A stretch of 64,000 nt of DNA from Acinetobacter lanii (GTDB lineage: Bacteria > Pseudomonadota > Gammaproteobacteria > Pseudomonadales > Moraxellaceae), in the NCBI RefSeq assembly GCF_011578285.1, contig NZ_CP049916.1, positions 2,232,001 to 2,296,000 on the forward strand, read 5' to 3'. This document shows, in pieces, positions 37,965 to 48,316 of the stretch. The position numbers and the translations under genes were made by a program. Position 1 is the stretch's first letter. Each line of letters starts with the position of its first letter. The notes beneath the pieces are model-generated. The model saw only the letters and a program-made list of their open reading frames with translations. It did no database searches and was not told where the DNA came from.

Positions 37965-38102
37965 GGTTGAATGGTCGGGTGAACAAAATCTTCCTCCGTC
38001 GGTATCTGTATCTCTTCACATCAACATCATGATGTTCTTTTGGTTTCAGCTAACATGCATTTAAACAACGTTTATTAAAACCGCGTAGATGCAGATAAAA
38101 GA

Positions 38103-38330
38103 TTAACGCTGTTGATTTTGTTTTTGCTGATCTTGTTGCTGTTTTTGTTGATCAGACTGCTGTTGTTGCTGACGTTGATTGTCATTTTGCTGATTGTGTT
38201 GATTTTGCTGACGCTGATCATCACGTTGCGGATTTTGTTGCTGTTGTTGGCGTTGCTGATCAGATTGTTGTTGCTGCTGATTATGTTGTTGGTTTTGTTG
38301 ATTCGATTGATTCTGTTGTTGATTACTCAT
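38103..38330 (-). CDS. Gln/Asn-rich low-complexity miniprotein
   Basis: A 75-residue protein made almost only of Gln, Asn, Asp, Ser, Arg, Lys and His; it starts MSNQQQNQSNQQNQQHNQ and has no hydrophobic core residue after Met1. Short units such as QQQQQSDQQ(R/K)QQQ recur twice (about 18-30 and 56-68), implying growth by internal duplication. A strong ribosome site, ATGGAGAATTGAA, lies directly before the ATG, and a minus-strand terminator follows, so translation is likely. It must be disordered. I do not recognise a family. Upstream, 38343-38358 forms the hairpin CGCTA/TAGCG in the leader. Confidence 0.6.
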   Translation of the reverse strand: MSNQQQNQSNQQNQQHNQQQQQSDQQRQQQQQNPQRDDQRQQNQHNQQNDNQRQQQQQSDQQKQQQDQQKQNQQR

Positions 38331-38780
38331 TTCAATTCTCCATCGCTAAAGCATTAGCGTGACAAAAGTTGCGTAGTAAAAATTACCTGATAAAAATAGT
38401 TGAATCTTGTTATACCGTTTAACGCTGTTGCGCTAACCGATACATCGAACATACGCCATTTTTTTCGCGGGGAAAGTCCAAAGCTGTTTCAAGATAATGC
38501 AATGTAACCCTAGGTCAAATTTTTATCTTAAGAATCAATAGCGTTAAATTTTGCCTATTACTTTAAACACCAAAGCATCAAAAACCTTAACTTACACTTA
38601 CAAACTATTAAGCTAAATAATTGAATTTATTATATTCCCAATCGAAAAGTAAATCTTAAAACATGAAAAGCCTACATGCAGCAGACTTTTCAAACTATTC
38701 AAAATCTATTTACAATCATGATTCGAATCAGTTAAACAGTCTTAAGCTTATCTGCGTAGACGTCTTGTCTCGCTTCTGAC
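38331..38780. other. Intergenic region upstream of the Gln/Asn-rich gene
   Basis: About 450 bp of A+T-rich DNA, containing the promoter of the Gln/Asn-rich gene and the 3' flank of icd. No gene, RNA or convincing terminator was seen. Confidence 0.5.
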
Positions 38781-40037
38781 TTAATCCTGCATATGCTCAA
38801 TAATCGCTTGCCCAAACTGTGAACAACTGAGCAGGGTTGCACCCGTCATCAAACGCTCAAAGTCATAGGTCACGGTTTTGGTTTCAATTGCCCCTGCAAT
38901 GCCCTTAATGATCAGATCGGCCGCATCCGTCCAGCCCATATCACGTAGCATCATTTCCGCAGACAAAATAATCGAACCGGGATTGACTTTATCTTGCCCT
39001 GCATATTTTGGGGCTGTGCCATGAGTGGCTTCATATACCGCAATCGCCCCGCCGATATTGGCACCCGGTGCAATGCCAATGCCCCCGACTTCGGCGGCTA
39101 GAGCATCCGAAATATAATCGCCATTGAGGTTTAAGGTCGCAATCACAGAATAGTCCGACGGACGCATCAAGATCTGCTGTAAAAACGCATCGGCAATCAC
39201 ATCCTTAATCACGATCTCTTGACCATTTTTGGGATTTTTAATGCTGACCCAAGGTCCACCATCGATAAGCTGACCGCCAAACCGTTCTAACGCCACTTCA
39301 TAGCCCCATTCTTTAAAGGCACCTTCGGTGTACTTCATGATATTGCCTTTATGCACCAAAGTCACATTGGGACGATTGTTATCGATGGCAAATTGTATCG
39401 CCTTTCGCACAAGCCGTTGTGTACCCTCTTTCGATACGGGTTTGATGCCAATTCCGCAATTTTCTTCAAAGCGAATTTGCGTCACACCCATTTCTTCTTT
39501 TAAGAATTTAATGATTTTTTTGGCATCCTCTGAATCCGCTTTCCACTCAATGCCGGCATAAATGTCTTCTGAATTTTCACGGAAGATCACCATATCGGTT
39601 TTTTCCGGATGCTGAACGGGAGATGGAACGCCTTTAAACCAACGTACAGGTCGCACACAGACATACAAATCCAGTTCTTGGCGTAACGCAACATTGAGTG
39701 AACGAATCCCGCCACCCACTGGTGTGGTCAGTGGACCCTTAATCGAAACGATAAACTCGCGGAGTGCCTCATAGGTTTCGTCCGGCATATAACTGCCATA
39801 GATGGTATTGGCTTTTTCGCCTGCGTAAACTTCCATCCAAATGATTGAGCGTTTAGCACCATAAGCTTGATGCACGGCTGCATCGACCACAGTTTTCATC
39901 ACCGGTGTGATATCAACACCAATCCCGTCTCCCTCAATAAATGGAATGATCGGATGATTTGGGACATTTAAAGATAAATCTGCATTGACCGTAATTTTAC
40001 TGCCATCGACCGGCACCACAATTTTCTGATAGGTCAT
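38781..40037 (-). CDS. icd: NADP-dependent isocitrate dehydrogenase
   Basis: TCA-cycle enzyme oxidising isocitrate to 2-oxoglutarate. The 418 residues match the dimeric E. coli type. [17 protein letters not shown] opens the fold; [20 protein letters not shown] holds the phosphorylatable serine and substrate arginines; [15 protein letters not shown] and [19 protein letters not shown] (NADP site) follow. It stands alone with about 275 bp of upstream DNA. Acinetobacter species often have a second, monomeric isocitrate dehydrogenase; this is the other type. Confidence 0.96.
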
Positions 40038-40312
40038 ATTGTATGCGCTCCTTGTTGTTGTTATTTCCTGCTGTTTAAATAATAATCACCATTCAGGCAA
40101 TTTTCACAGTGTTTCTTATCGCATAATATTCGAATTGGAAATGGCTATTGTTGCGATTTATATGAGGAATTGATGTATTTCACCCTTAAATAAAACTTCA
40201 TCTTATTTCCTCTGATTCTTATCTATTCAAAACACTCTTTTTTAAAAATGACCATTCTCAGATAAAACACATTAGCGATGTAAAAGTAAAACGGTTAACC
40301 ATCGGAGGTCTA

Positions 40313-40597
40313 ATGAATCGCATAAATGAAATTAAATGGGTGATGACCTGTCCAGCCTATCCTGAACAGTACGATGCGTTTTGTCAGAGCAAACAGGTGG
40401 GCTACCTCAGATTACGTCATGGTTGTTTTAGTGTGGAATATCCAAATGCCGGTGGTGAACGGATTTACTACGCAGAAAACCTCAATGCGGATGGATGCTT
40501 TGATGACGATGAAAGAGCGCATTTCTTAAACATAGCTAGACAAGTGATCGCGATGAAGCTTGCTGAAAAGGACAAGTCAGTGAACCTTGCAGATTAA
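40313..40597 (+). CDS. Small protein of unknown function
   Basis: A 94-residue protein I do not recognise. It has a strong GGAGG ribosome site five bases before ATG 40313. The sequence is polar and mixed, with two cysteines in the first 35 residues (VMTCPAYPEQYDAFCQSK), an aromatic-rich middle (LRLRHGCFSVEYPNAGGERIYY), and an acidic DGCFDDDERAHF before a C-terminal helix. No membrane helix or signal peptide. Composition matches the neighbours. It is probably a lineage-specific cytosolic protein. Confidence 0.68.
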   Translation: MNRINEIKWVMTCPAYPEQYDAFCQSKQVGYLRLRHGCFSVEYPNAGGERIYYAENLNADGCFDDDERAHFLNIARQVIAMKLAEKDKSVNLAD

Positions 40598-40775
40598 TGC
40601 AGTTCAATCCAAAAAACTCAATCAACTCATTTGAATTGAACACGCTCCATTTTATGGGCTTGTTCAATCAGGTGAAATCAAACACCCCATATTTGAGTTT
40701 TAAATCGAAGAGCTTTGCTATAGTCACCATGTTCAGCCTAAAGTCGAAGACCATCAGGTAGAAGCATGATACAAT

Positions 40776-40799
40776 AGCCCGCATATAGTGGGCTTTTTC
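40776..40799 (+). terminator. Terminator-like hairpin upstream of rluE
   Basis: AGCCC-gcatatagt-GGGCTTTTTCTTTT with a good T run. It may end transcripts from the small gene at 40313 or a short RNA starting near 40720. Confidence 0.55.
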
Positions 40800-40894
40800 T
40801 TTTACCCCTCCCTAGACTCTGTATTTAAACAGGTCATTTAATGGGTAATCAGACAACCACACAAAATTTTATTTAATTATATCAGTAGATTCCA

Positions 40895-41683
40895 GTGAAA
40901 ATAGTTATTCTCAATAAGCCATATGACGTTCTCTCCCAGTTCCGTAAAGACGAAGCTCACATGACGATGTCTGACTTCGTAGATGATCCAAGCTTGCGTT
41001 TAGCGGGTCGTCTCGATATGGACTCTGAAGGCTTGGTCTTTCTAACCGATCATGGTGGTTTGAATCAGTACATTACCAACCCTGCGAACAAAAAGTTCAA
41101 AACCTATGTAGTGCAAGTTGAAGGCGATTTCACTGAAGAAGCGCTTGAGCAACTCCGCAAAGGCGTTGAACTCAAAGATGGTATTACACTGCCTGCCAAA
41201 GCGAACAAAATTGAACAACCTGAATGGTTGTGGGATCGTGATCCTCCGGTTCGTTTCCGTGCATCTGTACCGACTTCATGGGTTGAAATTCAAATCTGTG
41301 AAGGGCGTAACCGCCAAGTGCGTCGTATGACCGCGGCTGTAGGTTTCCCGACTTTGCGTTTGATTCGTACCCGTATTGGTGCGATTGATTTGGTTCAGTT
41401 GCAATTGCAACCGGGTGAAACCAAAGAAATCGAACCTTTGCTATATCCTGACTTTCAAAACATTCCTGCGGAAGAACCTTACCGTTCACGTTCGTATGTG
41501 AAAAAACCGGGTGGTACTGGTGGTAAGCCTATGGTCCGTAAAAAGAAAGATGGGACTGTGAAAAAATCAGGCACCAAACGTATTTGGCAAATGGATGACA
41601 GTGAGAAACCGAAACGTCGTACCAATGGTACAACTCGTCCAAATGCTAAAGCACCTCGCGGGCGTGGACGTGGTCGCGGTTAA
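40895..41683 (+). CDS. rluE: 23S rRNA pseudouridine synthase RluE with basic C-terminal tail
   Basis: RsuA-family enzyme that makes pseudouridine in 23S rRNA (U2457 in E. coli). VILNKPYDVLSQF, the catalytic Asp motif AGRLDMDSEGLVFLTD, ITLPAKANKIEQPEWLWDRD and EGRNRQVRRMTAAVGFPTLR all follow RluE closely. The start is GTG at 40895, which gives the family's MKIVILNKPYDVL. After the catalytic domain (about 1-190) there is an extra, strongly basic tail of about 70 residues rich in Lys, Gly, Thr and Arg, ending RGRGRGRG; E. coli RluE lacks this. A terminator follows at 41699. Confidence 0.9.
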   Translation: MKIVILNKPYDVLSQFRKDEAHMTMSDFVDDPSLRLAGRLDMDSEGLVFLTDHGGLNQYITNPANKKFKTYVVQVEGDFTEEALEQLRKGVELKDGITLPAKANKIEQPEWLWDRDPPVRFRASVPTSWVEIQICEGRNRQVRRMTAAVGFPTLRLIRTRIGAIDLVQLQLQPGETKEIEPLLYPDFQNIPAEEPYRSRSYVKKPGGTGGKPMVRKKKDGTVKKSGTKRIWQMDDSEKPKRRTNGTTRPNAKAPRGRGRGRG

Positions 41684-41698
41684 TCCGATGTAATATAT

Positions 41699-41725
41699 AA
41701 AAAACCCACTAATGTGGGTTTTTTT
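41699..41725 (+). terminator. Intrinsic terminator after rluE
   Basis: AAAAAACCCACT/AATGTGGGTTTTTTT stem-loop. It marks the left edge of the A+T-rich insert. Confidence 0.88.
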
Positions 41726-41811
41726 ATGTTTATAAATCTATGATAATATTGTGTTTTATGATATTTATAATTCTTTATTGATATAAAAATTTTAAAATTT
41801 GGGGGAATAAA

Positions 41812-44556
41812 ATGGCTACTATGAAATTTAAAGATTTGGTTGAAAAGGAACTACAGAATAAAAAAAGATCTGTTAAAGATTTAGTGAATTATGTTGGTAA
41901 AACTCCAATGTCTCATCCAAATTATAGTATTTTCCTTGGTGCAGGTGCCTCCGTAACGTCGGGTATAAATAGTGGTGGTCACTTAGTTCATAATTGGAGA
42001 AAAGAAATTTATGAACAATATTGTGGTGACTATTATTCAAAAAATATTGAACATAATGCTGAATTGCTCAATGAAGATGATGCTAAAGATAGAGCTATCA
42101 ACTACTTAATTAGAGAACAAGGTCATTGGTACAATCCTCAAAATGAATATTCATCGCTTTTTGAAAGAAAATTTGATCTACCATCGCAACGCCGTAGATT
42201 TGTCGAAAGCTTAGTCGATGAAAAACTACCTTCTATAGGTTATTTACACTTAATAACTTTAATAAATAATTCTTACTTTAATACAATTTTTACTACTAAT
42301 TTTGACGATTTAATTAATGAAGCATTTTATCAATTTTCAAATACAAGACCTTTGATTTGTGCCCATGACTCTGCTGTTGGAAGTGTATCTGTAATATCGA
42401 AAAGACCCAAAATCATTAAATTACATGGTGATTATTTGTATGATGATATAAAAAATACAATTAAAGAAACCGAATCATTAGAACAAAATATAAAGGAAAA
42501 ATTTATTGAGTTCACAAAGGACAATGGATTAATTATTGTTGGATATTCTGGACAAGATCGCTCAATTTTAGATGTACTAAACTATTTATTACAACAAGAA
42601 GAATATTTAAAAAATGGACTATATTGGTGCTTTAGAGCCGATGATGAGATTAATCATGAAGTTAGAAAAATTCTATGGCGCGATAAAGTCTATTGCGTAG
42701 AAATCGATGGTTTTGATGAATTATTTACTGAATTTTGTCATCATGTAAATGTTAAGCCTAATCTTATAGATTCAGCTACTGATTCAAAACGTGAAAAATG
42801 TATTAAAAAATTCATAACAGACTACGAAACTTCAGATATAAAAAATATTCTAATTAAGGATTTCATTGAAGAAGTATCAACTGCTAGAAATAACCAGAAC
42901 ATTTCTGATTTAATTAGACAATTAAATGAAAATACCAACTCTCATATATCACAAGAAAACTTTAAAAACCTATTAGAAGTTGAACAATTAATAAGCAAAT
43001 TAGATTATGATAAAGCTTTAGAAAAAATCAATTTTGAATTAAAAAATATAAATGACAAAGAAATTGAAGAAAGTTATATCTCACTAAAAATTAGAGTTCT
43101 AAAATTACAAAAGAAAGATCGACTAGCTATTGAAATAATTGAAAATTTAATTGAAAGTGATCCTTATAATCCTAAATTCTACCAATGGAAACTCAATTTC
43201 ATTAACAACATTGAAGAACGTATTAATTATTTATTTGATGTTAATAATAAGATTATAAACAATCAACATTTTAAAAATTTATTAGTAGAGGCCTTTATTT
43301 ACAATTTAGAAAATGACGAAATTAAAAATAATGTTGAATTTGAATATTGTGAAAAACTAATAAATGAAAGTATACAAATTTATCCGAGCTTGGATAATGA
43401 TGCATATGAATTAAAATACAAATTATTAAATATAAAAATTAATAAGCAATTATTTAAAGATAAAATTCAGAAAAATAAAATTGAACATGAGCTTAAGATA
43501 AATAGTGAAATTTCAAAAATAATTGAAACCATAACTTCAATCAATAAGTTTAACATTAATGCAATAAATTTAAAAAAAGAATACATCATGGATAAAAAAA
43601 ATATCACTTTAATTAATGATTTTATTTCAGATTTAGAATCTTACATAAGTAAATCACACAATGATAAAGCAAAAAAAATTATAGGTATAATTTCATCAAT
43701 TTACTTAAAATTAACTACCACAAACATAGCTTCATTTAAAGATAGTGATAAAATTAATTATTCTAAAATTGATGATTTCTTTTTTAATTATGCTGATGAT
43801 TTTACAAAAGAAGACAATTTTAAATTTTTATTAAATAAATTTAACTACTTCTATTCAAGAAATTTAGATTTAGATAATTTGGAAAGTGATTTAAATCAAA
43901 TCTTAGCATTAAAAGATAGTTTAGAATATATAAAATTAACTGTTTCAAATTTCACATCTTTTAGCATTAAAAATATTAATGAAACTCTTAAAAAATTCAT
44001 CGAAGAAAAGAAAAAAATCATCAAAATTGAAGATTATTATTATTGCCTTTCTGAAATAGAAAAATCTAATAAAAATTTTAATGATGCACTTTCACTTTTG
44101 CATAAAAGTTACAGCTCATCTGAAAAAGATTTAAACGGTTCAGAAATAATTTCATATACATATGCTTTATTACTTGCAGAAAAATATGAAGATTTGGATA
44201 AATTTATATCAAAATCTTCAAATATTATTAAAAAAATTGAAAAAGATGATAGACTAATAATCGAAATAAATACTTTAGTTGCGAAGAAATTAAATAGTTT
44301 TTTAACAGAGACCGACAAAGCAATATTGCAAACATATCTATCAAAACATTCTAATAACAAGAGAGTATTTATTTGTATTAATTCATTATTAGAAAAAAAT
44401 AATGAAGCTTTATTCCATATTAAAGAACAAATTAATTTAGATTATAGAGCATATTATGAATTTAAAGAATGGCCTAGTATTAATAAAATAATAAAACTCG
44501 AGATGGAAAAATACTATAACACTTTAAGTAACACTAATTTAGTTAATATCGCTTAA
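41812..44556 (+). CDS. SIR2-domain protein with helical-repeat C-terminus, probable anti-phage NADase
   Basis: A 914-residue protein. The SIR2-like domain (about 35-310) keeps the NAD-binding and catalytic marks: FLGAGASVTSG (41-51), TTNFDDL (161-167), KLHGDYLY (203-210, catalytic-type His205) and GYSGQDRS (244-251). The remaining 600 residues are helical and Lys/Glu/Asn-rich, with TPR-like helix pairs at about 390-460. I find no Walker A motif, so it is not an Avs5-type STAND protein. The layout resembles stand-alone defence-associated sirtuins (DSR), which deplete NAD on phage sensing. DNA is much richer in A+T, with many ATA and AGA codons, than the flanks, indicating transfer. A GGGGGA ribosome site precedes the ATG. 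Confidence 0.82.
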   Translation: MATMKFKDLVEKELQNKKRSVKDLVNYVGKTPMSHPNYSIFLGAGASVTSGINSGGHLVHNWRKEIYEQYCGDYYSKNIEHNAELLNEDDAKDRAINYLIREQGHWYNPQNEYSSLFERKFDLPSQRRRFVESLVDEKLPSIGYLHLITLINNSYFNTIFTTNFDDLINEAFYQFSNTRPLICAHDSAVGSVSVISKRPKIIKLHGDYLYDDIKNTIKETESLEQNIKEKFIEFTKDNGLIIVGYSGQDRSILDVLNYLLQQEEYLKNGLYWCFRADDEINHEVRKILWRDKVYCVEIDGFDELFTEFCHHVNVKPNLIDSATDSKREKCIKKFITDYETSDIKNILIKDFIEEVSTARNNQNISDLIRQLNENTNSHISQENFKNLLEVEQLISKLDYDKALEKINFELKNINDKEIEESYISLKIRVLKLQKKDRLAIEIIENLIESDPYNPKFYQWKLNFINNIEERINYLFDVNNKIINNQHFKNLLVEAFIYNLENDEIKNNVEFEYCEKLINESIQIYPSLDNDAYELKYKLLNIKINKQLFKDKIQKNKIEHELKINSEISKIIETITSINKFNINAINLKKEYIMDKKNITLINDFISDLESYISKSHNDKAKKIIGIISSIYLKLTTTNIASFKDSDKINYSKIDDFFFNYADDFTKEDNFKFLLNKFNYFYSRNLDLDNLESDLNQILALKDSLEYIKLTVSNFTSFSIKNINETLKKFIEEKKKIIKIEDYYYCLSEIEKSNKNFNDALSLLHKSYSSSEKDLNGSEIISYTYALLLAEKYEDLDKFISKSSNIIKKIEKDDRLIIEINTLVAKKLNSFLTETDKAILQTYLSKHSNNKRVFICINSLLEKNNEALFHIKEQINLDYRAYYEFKEWPSINKIIKLEMEKYYNTLSNTNLVNIA

Positions 44557-44587
44557 AAAAAACCGAAGCTTTAGCTTCGGTTTTTTT
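44557..44587. terminator. Bidirectional intrinsic terminator
   Basis: ACCGAAGC-ttta-GCTTCGGT with A8/T7 flanks, directly after the SIR2 stop and just before the convergent deaminase stop. Confidence 0.92.
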
Positions 44588-44594
44588 ATTTTAT

Positions 44595-45833
44595 TTATTT
44601 AATTTCAAGAATCTCAAGCTGACGGCGCATAATTACCTTGCCATTTTTCACACTTAAAATCGCTTTGGCTTGATTGGCTACCACGTCATAATCATTCTTG
44701 GCAGGCATAATGATGAAACTTGCAGGACGACCGACTTCAATGCCGTATTGATCCCCTAAGCACAGCGTTTTTGCAGAGTTGTCCGAAACAAAATCTAAGC
44801 ACCGTTGCAGGTCTTCATAACCGAGCATATGACAAATATGTAAACCCGCATCCAAGATGCGTACGATATTGCCATTACCGACTGGATACCACGGGTCACG
44901 AATCGAATCCTGACCGAAGCAAATGTTCATCCCTGCACGATCAATTTCAGCCACACGGGTAACACCACGACGTTTTGGATAGGTGTCAAAACGCCCTTGT
45001 AAATGAATGCTTTCCGTTGGGCAAGACACAAAATTGATTTTTGAGCGTTTGAGTAAACGGAACAATTTATAGCAATAGGCATTGTCATAAGACCCCATTG
45101 CAGTGGTATGACTCGCAGTGACACGATGTCCCATACCACGTACACGGGCTTCATCCGCCAAGACTTCTAAGAAACGTGATGCAGGATCATCGATTTCGTC
45201 ACAGTGCACATCGACCAAACAGTTATATTTTTCAGCCAAGTCCATCAGGAAATGCACTGAACTCACGCCTTTTTCACGGGTGTATTCAAAATGTGGAATC
45301 CCACCGACCACGTCCGCCCCGAGTTTAATCGCCTCTTCCATCAGGTTGCGACCATTGTGGTAAGACTCGATGCCCTCTTGTGGGAACGCCACAATTTGCA
45401 GATTAATCAGATCTTTAATTTCTTCCTTAATCTCGAGCATCGCTTTTAGCGCTGTTAAATCAGGATCTGTGACATCGACGTGGGTACGTACATGCTGAAT
45501 CCCATGTGCCACCAACATATCAATGGTTTTATGGGTACGTTGTTTGGTGTCTTCATGGGTAATGGTTTCTTTACGTTGTCCCCAACGCTCGATGCCTTCA
45601 AACAATGTGCCTGACATATTCCATTCAGGTTCACCTGCTGTCAGCACTGCATCCAAATGGATATGCGGTTCAACCAAAGGCGCCATCAGCAGTTGTTGCT
45701 GTGCATCGATCACATCCGCTGCTGAACTTTGAATCACACCCGATTGCGCTTCAATAGATTCAAATACACCGTTGTTGTAGCTCAGGGAGAATAAGCCGTC
45801 TTTACCACGCAAAATCGCGTTAATTACTTTCAT
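44595..45833 (-). CDS. codA: Cytosine deaminase-type amidohydrolase
   Basis: TIM-barrel deaminase of 412 residues, similar to E. coli CodA over its length with a constant 4-residue offset. Metal and catalytic positions are kept: His57 and His59 (EPHIHLD), His210, Glu213 (VHCDEID), His242 (SHTTAM) and Asp309. However, the motif FGHDD of CodA reads FGQDS here, so CodA Asp314 corresponds to Ser310 and His312 to Gln308; this alters the substrate pocket. Together with an NCS1 permease it should act on cytosine or a similar compound such as creatinine or isoguanine. It is last in a three-gene operon, 10 bp after the regulator. Confidence 0.82.
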   Translation of the reverse strand: MKVINAILRGKDGLFSLSYNNGVFESIEAQSGVIQSSAADVIDAQQQLLMAPLVEPHIHLDAVLTAGEPEWNMSGTLFEGIERWGQRKETITHEDTKQRTHKTIDMLVAHGIQHVRTHVDVTDPDLTALKAMLEIKEEIKDLINLQIVAFPQEGIESYHNGRNLMEEAIKLGADVVGGIPHFEYTREKGVSSVHFLMDLAEKYNCLVDVHCDEIDDPASRFLEVLADEARVRGMGHRVTASHTTAMGSYDNAYCYKLFRLLKRSKINFVSCPTESIHLQGRFDTYPKRRGVTRVAEIDRAGMNICFGQDSIRDPWYPVGNGNIVRILDAGLHICHMLGYEDLQRCLDFVSDNSAKTLCLGDQYGIEVGRPASFIIMPAKNDYDVVANQAKAILSVKNGKVIMRRQLEILEIK

Positions 45834-45843
45834 AAATTACTCT

Positions 45844-47055
45844 TTAGTGATGCGTCATGCGCCAAATCAGTAATGCCACAGCGGCATTTAAACGAAAATG
45901 GGCAGACGTGAGAGATTGACCCATGAGGGCTTCAATTTTTTGAATCCGTTGATTCAAGGTATTTCGGTGAATCCCTAAACGTTGGGAAGTGGCAATGACA
46001 TTGCCATTTTCTTTAAACCAAGCATCTAAGGTTTCTACCAACAAATAAGGATGTTTACGTTCAGGTTCAATCAGCATGCCAATGCAGTCTTGCATAAACT
46101 GCTGAAGCAGTTGTTTATTGGGAATGGCTTTGAGCAGTTTTAGCAAACCTAAATCTCGATAATGACACACGCCCTGTTCAGCCGCTAAATCGGCTGCCAC
46201 CTCTTGGGCATGACATGCTTCCCAAAACCCACGTTGGAATGCCACCGCAGACTGCACAGGGTTCGACAGACCGATGTAAATCTGAAGATCATGCGTCAAG
46301 TCTTGCAGTTGTTGCCTAAGTTGCATCAGATGCGCTTGCCATTCTTCTTCATTCAACTGCTCAAGTGACAACACCAAATGAAATTGATCACTTTGCCGTG
46401 TCACAGGAAATTGCTGTTGCTGTTGTTTGTGCCATTGTTCCAGCAGTTGATAGGCACTTTGCTTGAATTGGAAAAAAGCTTTTTCATGTGCAAGCATGTC
46501 CCGTTCATTCACGGTATGTGGCTGTACGCATTTGAGCACCACAATCACATGTGATTCAAACACAGGTAAACTCACCTGTTGCGCGCGCATGTGGATGCTG
46601 TCCAATGAGGGAAAATCGCCCTGTAATAACTGCATCACCACATCTTCAGCCGAACGTTTAAGCTGAGAAAACTCCACCAAACGTGTGCCAATAATATGGG
46701 TGACTTCAACCATTTTTAAGCGATACGGCTGTTCTATCAACGGCAATGCCAAGGCTCCCGCTTTAGCAATCACAGATTCAGGAATACTGGGGATAAAATC
46801 TGGACTGGTTAAAATCACCATTGCAGCTACATCACGTTGCTGGGCTTGATCAAGCAGTGCCAATAAATTGGCTTCATCTCGAATGGTATTCACGCCGACA
46901 AAAATAATTTCGCCGCCACTGATCCATTCCGAGATGCTTTCATTTTCAGCCACATAAAACCAACGCACAATCCGATGTAAATGCTGATGCCCTGCACGCA
47001 CCTGCATTTCAAACAGTTGCGGCAAATCCAGAACATCCTGAACCGTCATGCTCAT
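45844..47055 (-). CDS. PucR/CdaR-family transcriptional regulator
   Basis: A 403-residue regulator. The N-terminal PucR-type domain (about 1-125: VQDVLDLPQLFEMQVRAG, SGGEIIFVGVNTIRDE) probably senses a purine- or pyrimidine-related ligand. The C-terminal HTH_30 is NVIATSQRLGIHRNTLNQRIQKIEALMG. PucR-type proteins regulate purine or amino-acid catabolism, often as activators. It lies between permease and deaminase genes, 4 bp after the former and 10 bp before the latter, so it most likely controls this operon. An AAGAGG site precedes ATG 47055. Confidence 0.87.
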   Translation of the reverse strand: MSMTVQDVLDLPQLFEMQVRAGHQHLHRIVRWFYVAENESISEWISGGEIIFVGVNTIRDEANLLALLDQAQQRDVAAMVILTSPDFIPSIPESVIAKAGALALPLIEQPYRLKMVEVTHIIGTRLVEFSQLKRSAEDVVMQLLQGDFPSLDSIHMRAQQVSLPVFESHVIVVLKCVQPHTVNERDMLAHEKAFFQFKQSAYQLLEQWHKQQQQQFPVTRQSDQFHLVLSLEQLNEEEWQAHLMQLRQQLQDLTHDLQIYIGLSNPVQSAVAFQRGFWEACHAQEVAADLAAEQGVCHYRDLGLLKLLKAIPNKQLLQQFMQDCIGMLIEPERKHPYLLVETLDAWFKENGNVIATSQRLGIHRNTLNQRIQKIEALMGQSLTSAHFRLNAAVALLIWRMTHH

Positions 47056-47059
47056 GGCG

Positions 47060-48316
47060 TTATGCCTCTTTCAACTGTGCATGTTTGATCGGAAAAATTG
47101 CCGTTAACGTTGCATAACAAGCAAATGCCACCGCAATCCCAACAATCGGTGCCACCCACGGAGAAACATAGGCACAAATCGCACCGATGGCATACGCAGA
47201 TAAGCCCAGCCAATTAAAATTCGGCAGTTGTGCGTCGCATAAGCGTGGGTATTTGCCTTTATAGCGTACCCAATAATCCGCCATGATCACGCCACCTAAA
47301 GGCGGAATAATCGCACCGAGTAACAACAGAAATGGAATCAGAAATTGGTACATACCCAGTACCGCCAATACAATCCCGATCGCAGCCGAAGCCAAGACCA
47401 TGGTTTTACGGCGTTCAGTACGCACCAAATGACAGGCTGCTGCTGAGACGTTATAAATGGTCGGGCCTTGAATGGTCCAGAGGTTTAAGCACAGCATCAC
47501 AATCGCAGCCAATGATAAGCCTTGTAGAATGAGTACTTCGACAATATCCGCTTGCTGATAGACAATCGCCATCCATGCCCCGGCAAGCACCATAATGCCA
47601 TTACCAATAATAAAGCTGACCAAACATGCCCAAACTGCAACACGGCTGCTTTTCGCCATACGTGTCCAATTGGTGATTTGGGTCGCACCACTGGCAAATG
47701 TCCCAAACACCATGGTAATGGCTGTGGCAAAGGTCATTTTTTCAGTGGGTTGTGCACTGTTGAGTCCATGCCATCCGCCCACATGTTGGGTCGCCAAATA
47801 AATGGACACCACCAATAAAATAAACATCAGCGGAATCGAAATTTTAGACAGAAACTCAAGTCCTTTAAAACCGACAATGGCGGTGATGGAAAAACCCAAA
47901 CCGAATAACACCATTAAAGGGATAGTCCATGTCTCAGGTAAATGTACAATTTTGGTCAATGAAATGGCTAAGGTTGCGGTGCCCCACGCATACCAACCCA
48001 GTTCAGCAAATCCCAATAAAAAATCCGAGAGTTTGCTGCCCAAGTTACCAAAACAAAAACGGCCCATCAGGACGGTATTTAAACCACTGCGGGCCGAGAT
48101 TAATCCCAGAGATGCGGCATATAAGCCGAGTAGCACATTGCCAATGACGGTTATCCAAAGAATATCGGTAAATTCAAAGGCAACCCCGATTTTGCCGCCG
48201 GCAAACATGGTCGCGGTAAAAAACGTAAAACTGAATAACACCAAAGCGATGGGAAAAAACCCTTTACGCTGCGAGTCCGGTGTTTCTGTCAGTGGACTTT
48301 CATCATGTGTATTCAT
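47060..48316 (-). CDS. codB: Cytosine/purine permease (NCS1 family)
   Basis: Inner-membrane nucleobase symporter of 418 residues with about 12 hydrophobic helices. Family marks are GKIGVAFEFTDILWITVIGN near helix 1-2, TVLMGRFCFGNLGSKLSDFL, FASGATQITNWTRMAKS, and GAIIPPLGGVIMADYWV. It is close to CodB-type cytosine permeases, though purine transport cannot be excluded. It is the first gene of the codB-regulator-codA unit, with AGAGGGAAAG as ribosome site. A candidate operator lies about 90 bp upstream. Confidence 0.88.
   Translation of the reverse strand: MNTHDESPLTETPDSQRKGFFPIALVLFSFTFFTATMFAGGKIGVAFEFTDILWITVIGNVLLGLYAASLGLISARSGLNTVLMGRFCFGNLGSKLSDFLLGFAELGWYAWGTATLAISLTKIVHLPETWTIPLMVLFGLGFSITAIVGFKGLEFLSKISIPLMFILLVVSIYLATQHVGGWHGLNSAQPTEKMTFATAITMVFGTFASGATQITNWTRMAKSSRVAVWACLVSFIIGNGIMVLAGAWMAIVYQQADIVEVLILQGLSLAAIVMLCLNLWTIQGPTIYNVSAAACHLVRTERRKTMVLASAAIGIVLAVLGMYQFLIPFLLLLGAIIPPLGGVIMADYWVRYKGKYPRLCDAQLPNFNWLGLSAYAIGAICAYVSPWVAPIVGIAVAFACYATLTAIFPIKHAQLKEA

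Follow-up and report, generated by a model that had tools for sequence, protein, structure and literature searches.

Bacterial immunity employs SIR2 effectors again and again to kill, coupled in each case to a different sensor, such as Argonaute, a STAND ATPase, the solenoid of DSR2 and others. In DSR2, the tail tube binds the middle and C-terminal regions and thereby switches on the SIR2 NADase, i.e. the NAD+-hydrolysing activity (PMC11087589), and in Avs5 a repeat domain senses while SIR2 hydrolyses NAD+; GAGXS and TTNXD are the motifs described for defence SIR2 in the latter source (PMC12931631). Here we describe a gene of this type from Acinetobacter lanii, located in a stretch of 64,000 nucleotides (contig NZ_CP049916.1, positions 2,232,001 to 2,296,000; the whole stretch is called the window hereafter). 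By analogy with the systems above, we read its product, at a probability of about 0.74, as a stand-alone anti-phage (abortive-infection) NADase whose TPR part serves as sensor. It is encoded in the chromosome and belongs to a family, termed SIR2-TPR below, which is often carried as cargo by temperate phages and satellites, and the relatives on temperate phages appear to guard their host against rival viruses. The gene and its parts are as follows, conservation being counted over 33 aligned rows of the long clade, to which the window protein belongs:

41812-44556, plus strand: SIR2-TPR gene, a single open reading frame of 914 residues (PHROG_14359, E 6.8e-179, residues 4-893)
41812-42756, plus strand: N-terminal SIR2 domain of NADase type, residues 1-315
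41938-41952, plus strand: GAGAS nucleotide-binding motif, residues 43-47 (G43, G45 and S47 invariant in 33/33 rows)
42292-42306, plus strand: TTNFD motif, residues 161-165, with the catalytic-type Asn163 (33/33 rows)
42418-42432, plus strand: KLHGD motif, residues 203-207, with the catalytic-type His205 (33/33 rows)
42541-42564, plus strand: GYSGQDRS motif, residues 244-251 (G244, Y245, G247, D249 and S251 invariant in 33/33 rows)
42763-44553, plus strand: all-alpha TPR-like superhelix, the presumed sensor, residues 318-914 (AlphaFold2, profile and Foldseek)
44470-44475, plus strand: Trp887-Pro888 close to the C-terminus (Trp in 33/33 rows, Pro in 31/33)

An earlier note on this DNA, made by a model from the letters alone, had recognised a 914-residue protein with these four SIR2 motifs, some 600 helical residues and no P-loop, and all of this holds. 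The motifs did not arise by chance, because N163 and H205 are kept in every one of the aligned rows; we take N163 as the counterpart of N133 and H205 as that of H171 in DSR2, as numbered in PMC11087589. The GAGxS and TTNxD motifs and the catalytic His of NADase-type defence SIR2 are all present in the window protein. A Walker A motif is absent from it, and a loose pattern of this kind occurs in one of the 33 rows only (L052). The reading frame is intact over 914 codons, starts with ATG and is preceded by GGGGG six bases 5' of the start. Because no phage genes flank the window copy and a gene related to the phage tail gene gpD was not found in its own genome, in a search run without positive control, one might suspect what is left of a lost prophage, inactive or in decay; the intact frame, the complete set of motif residues, the ribosome-binding site and terminator-like hairpins make such a remnant extremely unlikely.

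Helical prediction covers the C-terminal approximately 590 residues. The earlier note had found this C-terminus unlike any family it could name; it is TPR-like by profile, by AlphaFold2 model and by Foldseek. Modelled alone, the region reached a predicted local distance difference test score (pLDDT) of 85.8 and a predicted template modelling score (pTM) of 0.77, its profile matches designed TPRs (best E 8.9e-11), and the top Foldseek rows for the model are mostly TPR- and HAT-repeat proteins. A viral structure library gave a single match below E 0.001, to a giant-virus protein, the remaining matches being mostly generic repeat proteins. Mean pairwise identity is 0.61 in the SIR2 part and 0.21-0.30 in the helical part (residues 321-800); a conserved SIR2 domain with diverging helices is as expected of an effector joined to a sensor under changing demands, other explanations also existing for this pattern.

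The window protein is a member of PHROG_14359, a phage protein family without annotated function, in which a member from the P2 hotspot (L070) scores 1614.8 bits, and copies in P2-like prophages of E. coli are annotated 'SIR2 family protein'. The new SIR2-defence subtype suspected in the earlier note is therefore not new to the databases; its link to temperate phages had escaped that note. Single-sequence scans of the genome_contigs and viral_contigs collections found no relative, and it was a five-row alignment that did so. The full-length or nearly full-length matches in genome_contigs come mostly from Gammaproteobacteria, with some Betaproteobacteria, Bacteroidales and a Desulfospira (host classes read from organism names). 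Within Acinetobacter, a full-length homologue was found in 1 of 148 other genomes, and a profile search at E <= 1e-60 through a different sample, 299 genomes of the bacterial family, found two with a homologue beyond the window's own genome.

In a tree of 69 rows, built by a quick method without bootstrap and placing long branches (L018, L050 and others) unsurely, the window protein falls together with L061, L022 and L062 (support 100), L035 joining next (support 100); left out were duplicates, fragments and very distant rows, 27 loci including L033, L054, L056, L079, L080 and L094. These nearest relatives, 53-54% identical to the window protein, all have the tail gene gpD as a neighbour on prophage contigs: L022 belongs to Acinetobacter sp. 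ANC 4169 (its contig being shared with L023) and L035 to Alkanindiges illinoisensis, while L061 and L062 are contigs of the viral collection. Beside the SIR2 gene of L022 (L022:13442-14428) lies a gene for a 328-residue protein with hydrophobic stretches (by eye), and the same cluster is found in L062 and in L035 with its duplicate L063. The L022 protein gave a weak PADLOC match to the reverse-transcriptase-associated (RT-associated) SLATT model (E 8.5e-4). Such a gene is absent beside the window gene, and a partial relative (36%) sits elsewhere in the same genome.

Carriage by temperate elements extends well beyond this group. Twelve rows, all from viral contigs, occupy the interval that P2-like phages have between their portal gene Q and their replication gene A. 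In E. coli, 19 of 5426 genomes have a copy that spans 80% or more of the query, and in all six of these genomes that were opened it lies between the portal and the replication endonuclease genes. According to Rousset et al. 2022 (PMC9122126), the P2 portal-replicase interval is a defence hotspot and SIR2 is named in the Figure 4 legend; the family may be among the systems listed there, since the legend of Figure 4B names SIR2. The same P2 position held 4 of 21 functionally selected defence systems, as described by Vassallo et al. 2022 (PMC9519451). Two further loci, L025 and L077, adjoin P4-type integrase and primase genes and are, in our reading of their gene content, P4-like satellites, and a conjugative Pantoea plasmid carries another member next to an integrase. 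Compared along their full length, five E. coli alleles gave ratios of nonsynonymous to synonymous substitution rates (dN/dS) of 0.05-0.15, with saturation where dS exceeds 1; the protein is thus under purifying selection and kept functional in E. coli.

Hotspot carriage could also be expected of a superinfection-exclusion or lysogeny factor acting without NAD hydrolysis, e.g. through ADP-ribosyltransferase activity or the binding of a phage protein, and protein ADP-ribosylation is possible for sirtuin domains according to PMC9503650. We consider this alternative unlikely, as the motifs of NADase-type defence sirtuins are retained and the nearest solved SIR2 structures are defence sirtuins. The occurrence of family members as lone cargo genes, on prophages and satellites as well as on a conjugative plasmid, would also suit a toxin or addiction gene, which stabilises its carrier element and confers phage defence as a side effect. 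No partner gene accompanies the family as a whole, however: nothing antitoxin-like adjoins the gene across the loci, and the SLATT-like neighbour is confined to four loci (three distinct) of one lineage, which makes an addiction gene highly improbable. A stand-alone anti-phage NADase remains the preferred reading.

Several observations weigh against this preference. Named or same-genus genomes supply 22 of the long-clade rows in the tree; three of these have phage structural genes and two an integrase, 17 having neither; the phage-gene profiles were built from our own clusters plus six integrases and applied to about 8 kb on each side, so that distant phages may escape them. One of the 17 (L040) adjoins a phage lysozyme gene and is also in the viral collection. 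Rows from viral_contigs are phage-like by the very make-up of that collection, and the label 'other_phage' stands for single phage genes plus membership in it. The window copy itself adjoins no phage gene. The full-length model reached a pTM of only 0.55, so the mutual placement of SIR2 domain and superhelix, and hence autoinhibition, is unsupported by the model. As to the hotspot, PMC9122126 describes three of eight further cloned systems as active and none of these three as SIR2, and the P2-like hotspot also carries non-defence genes there, e.g. partition systems and a toxin. Our literature search found no experiment on any family member; no paper was recognised, from those portions of the literature that were available, as naming or testing the SIR2-TPR family, and an accession search for six members was equally empty.

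Going by these rows, some family members travel with phages whereas others are isolated genes of a chromosome, and the window copy belongs with the latter. Some isolated copies lie near defence-type genes (neighbours picked by eye): Abi_2 (L024), KAP NTPases (L036, L039), AAA_21 with DUF4276 (L041) and, adjoining the SIR2-TPR gene of Pseudomonas koreensis (L026:10757-11698), a predicted pPIWI-associating nuclease (PF18165/PF18166), the Argonaute profile being silent at that locus.

The analogy with DSR2 and Avs5 suggests how such a protein would act. In the healthy cell, the TPR superhelix would keep the SIR2 domain inactive; a product of the invading phage, probably a protein, would bind the superhelix and release the NADase, whereupon SIR2 domains would assemble and hydrolyse NAD+ by means of N163 and H205, and the cell would die or stop growing before the phage cycle is completed. 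The enzymatic activity, the self-inhibition, the assembly into oligomers, the trigger and the defence phenotype are all inferred in this manner. As the version with the TPR-like superhelix is widespread and has E. coli alleles in a known defence hotspot, the question of the trigger is directly testable in laboratory strains.

A shorter sister clade (PHROG_23427, tested for L016) has a homologous SIR2 domain and is likewise found as phage cargo beside integrase or replication genes, whereas its proteins measure only about 530-665 residues and their C-terminal part is shorter and different. Members adjoin the integrase in a PM2-like tailless Vibrio prophage, which belongs to the set of PMC11630473, occur in a P2-like Vibrio prophage, and lie beside lambda-type O/P replication genes in several viral contigs. 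A 643-residue E. coli protein behind replication gene P of a lambda-like element looks like another member, being placed by length and PADLOC profile rather than by the tree. The Vibrio gene of the PM2-like prophage (PQ189367.1, L016:1354-3228) carries the record label pAgo__SIR2APAZ; none of the 24 annotated features of this record is named Argonaute, and the Argonaute profile is silent there.

The surroundings of the window gene comprise the following features:

40895-41683, plus strand: pseudouridine synthase (PseudoU_synth_2; rluE in the earlier note), upstream
41699-41724, plus strand: terminator-like hairpin 3' of the pseudouridine synthase gene
44556-44587, no strand assigned: hairpin with runs of A and T at the end of the SIR2 gene
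44595-45833, minus strand: codA-like amidohydrolase (Pfam Amidohydro_3), convergent, an accessory gene

Three sites within 41500-44800 carry terminator-like hairpins, compared with 0.8 expected from shuffles, and the one at 44556-44587 may serve both convergent genes; Rfam at gathering scores gave no match within 40000-46000. The gene had been described as lying between the terminators of two core genes: the hairpins are there and the synthase was found in 145 of 149 Acinetobacter genomes, whereas the codA-like gene is not core, being found at E <= 1e-50 in 9 of 149 (both counts include the window's own genome). Synthase and codA-like gene are neighbours in three of these nine, namely the window, G087 and G073; the gap holds an AT-rich gene of 244 residues in one of the two relatives and an LA2681-type HEPN protein in the other. 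DNA shared with relatives stops at 41671-41735, depending on the relative, and restarts at 44619 (two codA-bearing relatives), so that the insert amounts to the SIR2 gene and little more. The SIR2 gene was found downstream of the synthase in none of the 48 relatives inspected (out of 145 carrying the synthase), and AT-rich single genes are common at this place among the 48: a 245-residue family at 20 loci, DUF2971 at four and HEPN at two. For both reasons, the junction looks like an exchangeable site for single genes, and the region downstream of the synthase may be an overlooked accessory or defence site in Acinetobacter. No integrase was identified at the junction; att repeats were not searched for.

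Across the corresponding junctions (41684-44594 in the window; L142-L149, L153-L192), proteins of the 245-residue family start with a hydrophobic stretch by eye, the DUF2971 group is DUF2971/PDC-S31, and at L177 a possible nuclease, again judged by eye, adjoins a transposase. In G142 (C1:2522640-2523861; L110, L111), there is, in addition to a whole codA-like gene, a second copy matching in two pieces with a stop, which fits turnover of this accessory gene. Elsewhere in the window (38103-38330, minus strand) lies an open reading frame of 75 residues, mostly Q and N and of low complexity.

That the gene is far richer in A+T than its surroundings is correct: its guanine-plus-cytosine (GC) content is 23.7%, compared with 41.6% in the rest of the window. 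As a sign of recent transfer, this was rejected; the gene lies below its flanks in all 30 chosen long-clade rows (median gap 17.6 points), also where the flanks have 65-71% GC, and low GC being a family trait, AT-richness cannot date the transfer. The broader proposal of the earlier note, a horizontally spread stand-alone SIR2 gene most likely encoding an anti-phage NADase, is nevertheless favoured by the sequence evidence, namely carriage in a phage hotspot, intact catalytic residues, rarity in the genus and absence of the gene from this locus in the 48 relatives inspected.

A wider interpretation seems to us evenly poised between right and wrong. SIR2-TPR would then be an unnamed one-protein class of abortive infection, in which a SPARSA-type SIR2 does without Argonaute guidance and answers to a TPR superhelix that diverges fast. 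Unrelated temperate viruses would have received this module and its short sister in their defence slots; they comprise tailed phages (P2-like and lambda-like), tailless PM2-like phages, P4-like satellites and an archaeal pleolipovirus, the last with a SIR2-TPR protein that is less closely related. A copy of the long form would have been domesticated next to the Acinetobacter pseudouridine synthase gene, at an exchangeable site for single genes.

The earlier note had sought the nearest kin in the layout of DSR1/DSR2. The nearest solved relative is instead the SIR2 of SPARSA (8jkz, 8jl0, 8in8), the sole solved homologue of the SIR2 domain by sequence, defence sirtuins being the nearest structures, and the window SIR2 domain resembles it more closely than DSR2. 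The best PADLOC models are those of Argonaute-associated SIR2 proteins as well. One could therefore think of a SPARSA-type effector whose partner, a short Argonaute, is encoded at another place in the genome, a reading to which the label of the Vibrio prophage gene would add. The sequence match stops at residue 309-311 of 8jkz, however, near the end of the SIR2 domain. Where SPARSA has an APAZ part, by the literature, the window protein has the TPR-like superhelix and no Argonaute partner nearby; the C-terminal profile at E <= 0.01 retrieved TPR chains and no SPARSA protein, no APAZ model having been run by itself. Of 95 loci, some of them duplicates, seven matched a one-sequence Argonaute profile, and the SIR2 rows of all seven are distant; among the 69 loci whose SIR2 score exceeds 200 bits there was no match. 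No Argonaute was seen among the open reading frames of window positions 38000-48000 and no Piwi domain in the own genome, in a search positive in 1 of 14 controls, which a divergent short Argonaute could escape. We regard a SPARSA-type effector as very unlikely, and SPARSA membership was rejected: the SPARSA-like SIR2 domain is present, but no Argonaute was seen alongside in the stretches examined. Argonaute-type labels on family members follow the SIR2 domain. Some members match Argonaute models although the stretch fetched around them contains no Argonaute, which suggests that an orphan 'SIR2-APAZ' call on a prophage may be mistaken; genes with such orphan SPARSA calls may instead belong to the family described here.

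DSR2 shares with the window protein its stand-alone nature, the N-terminal SIR2 domain, a long helical C-terminal part and the same Asn/His pair, and the whole model matches it in Foldseek at E 1.4e-8, in an alignment that spans DSR2 at a whole-chain template modelling score (TM-score) of about 0.2. DSR2 is not in the top 50 Foldseek rows for the C-terminal model alone, and it may lie further down. By sequence, no DSR2 chain was retrieved at E <= 1, neither with the single sequence nor with the 33-row profile, though such chains are present in the PDB, and no DSR model was among the matches to PADLOC, which presumably includes DSR models. Despite the matching architecture, membership in DSR2 was therefore rejected for want of sequence homology. 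Avs5 (SIR2-STAND), as described in PMC12931631, shares the SIR2 effector and a C-terminal repeat sensor, TPR in some. In Avs5, a STAND ATPase stands between effector and sensor, whereas the window protein has no Walker A motif. Finally, ThsA of Thoeris carries a C-terminal SLOG domain, which is an alpha/beta fold, whereas the C-terminal part of the window protein is modelled as all-helical.
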